Source: Agrobacterium rosae (GTDB lineage Bacteria > Pseudomonadota > Alphaproteobacteria > Rhizobiales > Rhizobiaceae). Taken from it: a stretch of DNA of 64,000 nt. A program made the translations under genes and the position numbers. Location: NCBI RefSeq assembly GCF_002915175.1, contig NZ_NXEJ01000009.1, forward strand, positions 153,969 to 217,968, read 5' to 3'. Under the pieces are notes generated by a model. That model was not told the origin of the DNA. It made no database searches and saw only the letters and a program-made list of their open reading frames with translations. Shown here piece after piece: positions 7,062 through 44,473 of this stretch; within the stretch, counting starts at the first letter, position 1, and every line of letters starts with the position of its first letter.

Positions 7062-7517
7062 ATGGCACTGAACGACGATATCCAGCTCTTGGCGCAGGTT
7101 CCTCTATTTCAGGGGTTGAGCGACGACCAGTTGCGCCTGATCGCCTTCGGTGCCGAGCGCCGCAAGATTGCGCAGGGGCAGGCACTGTTTCGGGAGCATT
7201 CGCCGTCTGAGTGCGCTTTCGTGATCGCACGTGGCGGCTTTCATCTCTATAGCACCGGGCGCAGCGGCAAAGCCGAGCTTCAGGCAACGCCGACGGCAGG
7301 CACGATGCTGTCCGAACTAGCGCTTTTTACGCTGTGCGAGCGCAAATATACAGCAGTGGCGTCGGAGGATTCTGAGGCCATCCGCATCACCCGCATCCTC
7401 TTCCATCGCATGATCGAAGAGTTTCCCAATGTCGCGGATGTTGTCATGACGCGGATCAGAGACAATATCGCAGCGCTTTCAGCAGGAGCGACGGCGCTTC
7501 AGGGGCGGTTTTCTTAG
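7062..7517 (+). CDS. Cyclic-nucleotide-binding-domain protein (Crp-like, no HTH)
   Basis: A single cNMP-binding jelly-roll domain fills the 151 residues: LAQVPLFQGLSDDQLRLIAF, then GQALFREHSPSECAFVIARG and GTMLSELALF. There is no helix-turn-helix after it, so it is not a Crp/Fnr transcription factor. The phosphate-binding cassette is weak: SELALFTLCERKYTAVASED has the Glu but lacks the usual Arg-Ser/Thr-Ala pair in standard form, so cAMP or cGMP binding is uncertain. It lies between the response regulator and hicA on the same strand. Function unknown. Confidence 0.75.
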   Translation: MALNDDIQLLAQVPLFQGLSDDQLRLIAFGAERRKIAQGQALFREHSPSECAFVIARGGFHLYSTGRSGKAELQATPTAGTMLSELALFTLCERKYTAVASEDSEAIRITRILFHRMIEEFPNVADVVMTRIRDNIAALSAGATALQGRFS

Positions 7518-7552
7518 GGTCACCGCCTGAAAATTTGAATTGACCAACTTAT

Positions 7553-7582
7553 CTTTTCATGTGTATTTATACACATGAAAAG
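7553..7582. promoter_or_regulatory. Perfect inverted repeat over hicA start (operator candidate)
   Basis: Arms CTTTTCATGTGTA (7553-7565) and TACACATGAAAAG (7570-7582) are exact inverse copies around TTTA. The right arm contains the hicA ATG (7575-7577). This is a likely autoregulatory site for the ribbon-helix-helix antitoxin HicB, and it could also fold in the mRNA and mask the hicA start. Confidence 0.75.
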
Positions 7583-7763
7583 CAGTGACGTTATATCTGC
7601 GCTTAAAAAGGCTGGCTGGTTTGATGTGGCAACTAAGGGGAGCCACGTTCAGTTCAAACATGCTGTATTGCCTGGTCGCGTGACGGTTCCGCATCCTAAG
7701 CGAGATTTACCGGTAGGCACACTGAAAAGCATCGAAAAACAATCTGGTTTGAAACTGCGGTGA
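7575..7763 (+). CDS. hicA: HicA-family toxin (mRNA interferase)
   Basis: HicA toxins are small dsRBD-fold ribonucleases that cleave mRNA and tmRNA when free of HicB. This 62-residue protein has the family pattern: MKSSDVISALKKAGW, the catalytic histidine in TKGSHVQFKH, then VTVPHPKRDLPVGTLKSIEKQ and a basic C-terminus. The start codon lies inside a 30-bp inverted repeat and no good ribosome binding site precedes it, suggesting deliberately weak or regulated translation. It overlaps hicB by one base (TGATG), so the two are translationally coupled, toxin first, as in many hicAB loci. Confidence 0.93.
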   Translation: MKSSDVISALKKAGWFDVATKGSHVQFKHAVLPGRVTVPHPKRDLPVGTLKSIEKQSGLKLR

Positions 7764-8170
7764 TGATCATGCGTAACTATATTGGACTGATCCACAAGGA
7801 TGCCGATAGCGACTTCGGTGTTTCCTTTCCCGACTTTGCTGGCGTCATAACCGCTGGCTGTGATCTTGATGACGCACGGAGCATGGCTGAAGAAGCGCTC
7901 GCGCTTCATGTCGAAGGCATGATGGAAGATGGGGAGGTGATTCCTGAGCCATCCAGCCTCGATACCATCATGGGGGATCCCGAAAACAGGGACGCTGTTG
8001 CAATCCTTGTTTCGCTCAGGACCGAAAGTAAGAAGGCCGTTCGTCTGAATATCACCCTTCCGGAAGATGTCCTCAAGGACATCGACGCTTATGCGCAAGC
8101 GCACGGGCTAACGCGTTCAGGCTTTCTTGCGCGAGCGGCAAAGCATGAAATCTCTGCTGCTGCGCCTTAG
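7763..8170 (+). CDS. hicB: HicB-family antitoxin
   Basis: HicB neutralises HicA and represses the operon. The 135 residues have the degenerate RNase-H-like domain at the N-terminus (MRNYIGLIHKDADSDFGVSF, then PDFAGVITAGCDLDDARSMA and EEALALHVEGM). A ribbon-helix-helix DNA-binding domain lies at the C-terminus (VRLNITLPEDVLKDIDAYA, then HGLTRSGFLARAAKHEI). The start is the ATG at 7763, overlapping the hicA stop; the GTG at 7760 or ATG at 7769 are alternatives. The RHH domain makes it the natural ligand of the inverted repeat at 7553-7582. It converges with xthA, 9 bp away. Confidence 0.93.
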   Translation: MIMRNYIGLIHKDADSDFGVSFPDFAGVITAGCDLDDARSMAEEALALHVEGMMEDGEVIPEPSSLDTIMGDPENRDAVAILVSLRTESKKAVRLNITLPEDVLKDIDAYAQAHGLTRSGFLARAAKHEISAAAP

Positions 8171-26930: not shown

Positions 26931-26965
26931 AAAAGCCACGGCACCGTTTGGGGCCGTGGCTTTTT
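26931..26965 (-). terminator. Terminator of ndvB
   Basis: Stem AAAAGCCACGGC / GCCGTGGCTTTTT, 12 bp, loop 10 nt. It lies 33 bp past the ndvB stop; T-runs exist on both strands so it may work both ways. Confidence 0.85.
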
Positions 26966-44443: not shown

Positions 44444-44473
44444 AAAAAGCCCCGGCATCGACCGGGGCTTTTT
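44444..44473. terminator. Terminator between trcR and ndvA
   Basis: Stem AAAAAGCCCCGG / CCGGGGCTTTTT with loop 6 nt, between convergent genes; suitable for both directions. Confidence 0.92.

Follow-up and report, generated by a model that had tools for sequence, protein, structure and literature searches.

Within a 64,000-nucleotide stretch of the Agrobacterium rosae genome (contig NZ_NXEJ01000009.1; the whole stretch is called the window below), the first start codon of the toxin–antitoxin operon hicAB lies inside a perfect inverted repeat. Comparison with related loci suggests that the dyad in this repeat probably serves both as the operator of the antitoxin HicB and as the −10 and start region of the operon's own promoter, with a leaderless toxin mRNA and a separate ribosome site for hicB. 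This reading draws on conserved half-sites, their association with hicB, a conserved promoter spacing, and the absence of a Shine–Dalgarno (SD) motif before the toxin gene together with its presence before the antitoxin gene.

The inverted repeat as a candidate HicB operator

The operon has the gene order of a HicAB type II module, with the two genes adjacent and the toxin first. hicA (7575–7763, + strand) encodes a HicA-domain toxin (PF07927, E 1.2e-20, 73.8 bits against a cut-off of 27) that is the one HicA match in its own genome, and hicB (7769–8170, + strand, with an alternative GTG start at 7760) encodes a DNA-binding antitoxin with PF15919 (E 5.3e-37) and ribbon–helix–helix (RHH) RHH_5 (E 4.4e-8) domains, both above cut-off; most relatives match HicB from residues MRNY onward. 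The inverted repeat spans 7553–7582 and consists of two 14-nt arms (7553–7566 and 7569–7582) that are 100% complementary across a 2-nt spacer, with the hicA ATG (7575–7577) inside the right arm. The initial annotation had reported a perfect repeat at the hicA start with 13-nt arms and the ATG in the right arm, a description that we confirm, the figure of 13 being that of the RNA fold (a 13-bp stem with a 4-nt loop). The repeat is the longest perfect inverted repeat in the window with a loop of at most 10 nt, and in 12 dinucleotide shuffles of the window no such repeat reached 13 bp. The window contains another two perfect inverted repeats, at 26931–26964 and 44444–44473, each with 12-bp arms.

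Sequence and family comparison divide the repeat into a core and outer arms. The core, TGTGTAT-TT-ATACACA (7560–7575, no strand assigned), is formed by half-site 1, TGTGTAT (7560–7566, + strand), and half-site 2, ATACACA (7569–7575, − strand), whose last base is the A of the hicA ATG. The outer arms, CTTTTCA (7553–7559) and TGAAAAG (7576–7582, hicA codons 1–3), likewise without strand, add seven further pairs. The core TGTGTAT-NN-ATACACA has one exact copy in its own genome (5.46 Mb, 23 contigs); allowing two mismatches adds 2 further places, compared with 7 for a reversed control pattern, which is the commoner of the two.

Relatives were collected by HicB from 39 genomes of the same genus, 394 of the family Rhizobiaceae and 397 of the order (overlapping sets), from named collections and from 12 further stretches; 104 loci were examined, with the window copies L001, L002 and L066 excluded beforehand. 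Twenty-two loci without a usable hicA start were dropped (L004, L005, L011, L012, L013, L021, L029, L033, L040, L043, L048, L055, L056, L073, L082, L083, L084, L092, L099, L100, L101 and L103). From the remaining 82 we also removed the duplicates L046 and L088 and locus L061 (no ATG found, start mis-called), leaving 79 distinct hicA–hicB loci: 63 close relatives (HicB at least 57% identical) and 16 distant ones (below 50%). Start codons of hicA were chosen by alignment position first, with ATG preferred on ties. The clade of 63 rows forms one branch with support 100/99, with 20 of 75 inner branches weak; L057 (short hicB) stands outside the tree and L081 (49%) inside the clade, and counts are therefore out of 63 or 64. 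Rows are not independent of one another, and Fisher and similar values carry no kinship correction.

The element common to these 79 loci is a pair of 7-bp half-sites. Of the 63 close relatives, 54 have TGTGTAT, with at most one mismatch, beginning 15–18 nt upstream of the hicA start codon. The partner half-site varies in position around it: in 28/63 it lies downstream in inverted orientation, at or close to the ATG, which is the window's own arrangement (TGTGTAT-NN-ATACACA); in 21/63 it is upstream and inverted (ATACACA-N4 or N5-TGTGTAT, for example L015), in 2/63 upstream and direct (for example L025), and in 3/63 missing. The best tree requires at least 7 changes of this arrangement, whereas label shuffling (200 trials) gave 13–22; the arrangement therefore follows descent without being fixed. 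Two loci carry further elements upstream of hicA. L075 has an additional dyad, TGTGTAT-N2-ATACACt, 33–49 nt upstream of hicA and upstream of a single half-site at −10, perhaps a second operator, and L062 has three half-sites in a row around −10.

A search of the 394 Rhizobiaceae genomes that took no account of hicB returned 14 exact copies of the core and 9 of ATACACA-N4-TGTGTAT. All 14 core copies lie upstream of hicB, and all 23 exact sites precede a HicB match, 22 of them at 185–206 bp and one at 50 bp, in genome G363, which has lost most of hicA; with reversed control patterns the same genomes yielded 1 and 3 sites. Such a HicB is carried by 43 of the 394 genomes, 20 of which have neither exact arrangement. 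The exclusive association of the 23 sites with hicB is the strongest evidence for the dyad as the putative operator of the module, and the dyad is most likely where the module's own antitoxin docks. In viral contigs, the core followed by TG was found in nine stretches; no reading frame from that ATG was HicA-like (0/9), and these occurrences were taken as chance.

Eleven of the 22 dropped loci were inspected for half-sites: paired half-sites are present in L005, L021, L033, L040 and L048, and no exact half-site was found within 260 nt before hicB in L004, L043, L029, L055, L056 or L099. Nine of these loci keep hicB with hicA absent, shortened or broken, three with the operator kept (L005, L021 and L048) and six in which it was not found (L004, L043, L029, L055, L056 and L099). 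L004 (genome G012, of the window's genus) and L043 (Rhizobium nepotum) share the same 290 nt at hicB, and L033 has a very long dyad of 18 pairs, −35 element included, beside a hicA with an out-of-frame ATG.

Covariation with the antitoxin points to a candidate base contact. The HicB RHH β-strand VRLNITLP is encoded at 8039–8062 (+ strand), and its Asn (8048–8050) is the proposed contacting residue. Five clade rows (L076–L080) lack an exact TGTGTAT or ATACACA and carry TGCATA-like half-sites (TATATG-like in L077), and the same five are exactly those with Ser in place of this Asn. All 57 Asn rows and the single Arg row keep an exact half-site, and the residue tracks the half-site in 62/62 Asn or Ser rows.

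Published binding data from Sinorhizobium meliloti bear on the same half-sites. The S. meliloti module SMc04441/SMc04269 belongs to the same clade, and its HicB, as well as the RHH domain alone, shifts a 221–223-bp probe from the region in an electrophoretic mobility shift assay; HicA toxicity and rescue by HicB are also demonstrated (PMC6327479). Both primers of that probe match locus L058 without mismatch and enclose half-sites in the upstream-inverted arrangement, which is unlike that of the window; the accessible part of PMC6327479 maps no operator. HicB of L058 is 76% identical to window HicB. The suggestion of the initial annotation that the repeat is probably the HicB operator is well supported by the RHH domain of HicB, the placement of every exact core copy in the 394 Rhizobiaceae genomes beside hicB, and the S. 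meliloti shift with the same half-sites.

Promoter and translation signals at the hicA start

The predicted operator overlaps a predicted core promoter. A −35 element, TTGACC (7540–7545, + strand), belongs to a class, TTG[AC], that begins 33–37 nt upstream of the hicA start codon in 53 of 64 clade rows; each of 13 other 5-nt windows between −107 and −43 has it in no more than 5 of the 64. Half-site 1 forms the −10 region, and its TAT lies 15–18 nt after the best −35 hexamer; in the window this region reads TATTTA (7564–7569, + strand), 18 nt after the −35 element, and many relatives have TATAAA or TATAAT. Taking TAT as −12, the predicted +1 falls at −2 to +1 of the start-codon A in 54/54 rows, and the spacing rule places the window's transcription start at 7573–7577 (+ strand) with A7575 favored. 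This spacing predicts a hicAB transcript whose 5′ end is no more than about 2 nt from the hicA start codon. Primary starts in Agrobacterium are 92.3% purines and the median leader is 61 nt (PMC10469942), so a hicA leader of 0–2 nt would be exceptional. Upstream of −40, mean pairwise identity is 0.21–0.31 (9 and 13 non-redundant rows), which is background, indicating that no further promoter is shared among relatives, although an unconserved upstream promoter is possible. On sequence evidence, a core promoter laid over the HicB operator is well supported and has the layout of a HicB-autorepressed promoter.

Translation signals differ sharply between the two genes. Of the 63 close relatives, one has an SD motif before hicA and 53 have one before hicB, and the window has none before hicA; median anti-SD pairing is 0.4 kcal/mol for hicA and −6.9 kcal/mol for hicB with a short tail; the lack of a good hicA ribosome binding site noted in the initial annotation is thus borne out. 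For comparison, the motif precedes 10 of 35 open reading frames of at least 200 amino acids in the window and 14% of random positions. With an adjacent half-site, 53 of 54 rows use ATG as the toxin start, versus 9 of 15 in distant families, and distant loci have a hicA SD motif in 8/16, with operator-like half-sites, where present, mostly further upstream. An AUG start and no SD are the features expected of a leaderless mRNA, and a leaderless toxin start is probable from these signals. S. meliloti has 171 mapped leaderless starts, a class defined by its AUG (PMC3616915), and trpL is a documented case of leaderless translation (PMC10117765); leaderless translation of the hicA toxin is plausible. 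The S. meliloti hicA clone, which by its primer included the 19 native nt upstream of the ATG, was toxic in E. coli (PMC6327479).

Start codon and ribosome-site variants accompany some of these loci. L095 combines a GTG start with an adjacent half-site and an altered RHH strand. L039 and L096 have direct-repeat half-sites starting 37 and 47 nt upstream of hicA and SD-like pairing (−5.8 and −5.9 kcal/mol), and both start with GTG; these two may have reverted naturally to a toxin mRNA with a leader. As to the cloned S. meliloti gene, its toxicity would show SD-less translation if the NheI site in the parent vector precedes, as we presume, the vector SD.

The probable hicB SD in the window is GGTGAT (7759–7764, + strand), within the tail of hicA, which pairs at −10.1 kcal/mol with the longer anti-SD tail and −3.0 kcal/mol with the short one. 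At 7759–7769 the window's hicA ends CGG TGA, and most relatives have AGG plus a stop, forming GAGGT as hicB SD; GGTGAT can pair with the anti-SD in place of GAGGT. A first impression of a degraded hicB ribosome site in the window was dropped after the longer tail was used.

In the mechanism that we consider probable, HicB RHH domains would bind the two 7-bp half-sites and block RNA polymerase. Once repression is lifted, as we infer from E. coli by excess HicA, transcription would start at the hicA ATG or within about 2 nt of it, and the mRNA would have neither a leader nor an SD for the toxin, leaving it weakly translated by leaderless initiation, with hicB using the ribosome site in the hicA tail. 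The toxin-first operon would then yield more antitoxin than toxin, and no hairpin would form in an mRNA started at the hicA ATG.

Several observations weigh against this proposal. Nine of 63 close relatives lack a half-site at the expected place, and the Asn/Ser link amounts to two independent pairs on well-supported branches, both agreeing with expectation, a number too small to reach significance. The −35/−10 spacers are the best of six spacings tried per row, the window's own −10 is poor (3/6 to TATAAT), and a generic promoter scan, which demands T at the last −10 base, reports no promoter at the window dyad; the sigma-70 −10 is itself described as little conserved in S. meliloti (PMC3616915). 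A longer anti-SD tail shrinks the contrast between the genes to medians of −2.55 (hicA) and −7.8 kcal/mol (hicB), with hicA weaker than its own hicB in 58 of 64 rows, and the missing hicA SD is partly forced by the operator letters. Finally, the probe of PMC6327479 is numbered −213 to +8, and taken together with the primers given there this would put a +1 about 119 nt inside hicA; we could not reconcile the numbering with those primers.

The toxin source, the proposed mRNA hairpin and other explanations

E. coli hicAB offers the most serious alternative. There, a HicB-repressed promoter, P2, lies next to the hicA start and its transcript gives antitoxin only, in addition to a second promoter, P1 (PMC6957337, PMC10865869, PMC11594946). 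By analogy, the same operator and promoter would produce an SD-less mRNA for HicB alone, with the toxin supplied from an unmapped upstream promoter or by read-through, and this published design agrees with a hicA lacking an SD and with an upstream gene that ends at 7517 on the same strand. P2 and its operator hicO are reportedly the work of Turnbull and Gerdes in 2017. Like P2/hicO, the window has a toxin-first operon and a predicted transcript without usable toxin SD. E. coli, however, keeps GGGAGG before hicA for P1, whereas here the predicted start falls on the ATG and an intact toxin SD for a longer, P1-type transcript is lacking in nearly all relatives, the window included. The ATG retained at all but one of the starts beside a half-site and the unconserved sequence upstream of −40 also argue against this arrangement, the latter with room for a promoter that is not conserved, and we regard it as a real but distinctly lesser prospect. 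Separately, a GC-rich stem is predicted at 7503–7528 over the stop codon of the upstream cyclic-nucleotide-binding gene; it has no U-run after it and could limit read-through into hicA.

The initial annotation also envisaged a second layer of control, in which the same repeat folds in the mRNA and hides the toxin start. In the window, read-through RNA is predicted to form a stable stem (−14.8 kcal/mol over its 30 nt) with the ATG buried (unpaired probability 0.00), and seven extra pairs are improbable by chance at a given site. These pairs are, however, confined to the window genome: the other 27 of the 28 rows with the same arrangement have 0–5, and in L003, the closest relative, no outer pair adjoins the core. 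Across the 28 rows, pairing at the eight outer positions is seen in 17, 7, 5, 7, 9, 5, 10 and 6 (positions 1 to 8 in order), where chance would give about 7; position 1 is the exception. The stem around the start codon is thus not kept in relatives, and in 21 of 63 the dyad lies wholly upstream of the ATG. Median ATG unpaired probability is 0.34 in 29 rows with the window arrangement and 0.40 in 35 others, so the former are not clearly less accessible. Promoter spacing moreover predicts transcription to start inside the right arm, the situation that the initial annotation had named as fatal to the hairpin, and a start at the hicA ATG would leave the hairpin out of this mRNA. We reject a conserved RNA layer; dual control by operator and hairpin is improbable, and on read-through RNA the hairpin would be no more than a local addition in the window genome.

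A shade less credible still is a promoter inside hicA that drives hicB and leaves the dyad as a HicB site only. Such a start would fit the S. meliloti probe numbering, and other toxin-first systems have internal promoters, for example H. influenzae toxTA (PMC6957337), but that numbering is unexplained in the accessible part of PMC6327479 and the −35/−10 spacing is conserved at the dyad itself. A repeat formed by chance or unrelated to hicAB has its AT-rich sequence in its favor and deserves almost no credence, being contradicted by the position of all 23 exact sites beside hicB and by the negative shuffles.

Related systems and implications

The predicted fusion of HicB operator, hicAB promoter and toxin start codon can be set against other RHH repressors. 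The HicB proteins of Y. pestis (HicB3) and B. pseudomallei are likewise RHH proteins on inverted repeats overlapping the −10 of the hicA promoter, with longer promoter regions and two sites, and overlap with the start codon is not described in the accessible part of the review; E. coli HicB, unlike that of the window, has a helix–turn–helix domain (PMC11594946). Among solved structures, the HicB chains 4p78 and 6g1n are related in sequence. RHH dimers of omega (ParB) of pSM19035 read 7-bp units in direct or inverted order, although in heptad arrays and for plasmid partition (PMC9499535), an analogy for freedom of orientation rather than proven kinship. The same 2024 review, as far as accessible, gives the S. 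meliloti HicB site as unknown and a double promoter as shown for E. coli only (PMC11594946). We noticed no account of a leaderless hicA or of this operator in the open-access literature searched, which was covered largely without full texts. Within the likeness to E. coli P2, what appears new is that the toxin gene looks leaderless throughout a clade.

A broader claim is tempting, though we hold it with rather more doubt than belief: that a rhizobial HicAB clade has fused operator, −10 and toxin start codon so that the toxin is made by leaderless initiation only, and that its repressor reads single 7-bp half-sites freely, with the −10 half-site fixed and the second rearranged repeatedly across the tree. 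If true, leaderless-only initiation would tie toxin output to ribosome state.

Toxin-first operons need more antitoxin than toxin, and here repressor site, promoter and toxin start codon appear superposed, with the toxin seemingly lacking a leader. The dyad also proposes an operator behind the published S. meliloti HicB binding, and its natural variants could be used for testing how far RHH dimers tolerate changes of half-site orientation. For RHH-type hicAB modules, this reading would turn the question of the toxin/antitoxin ratio into a start-site lookup.
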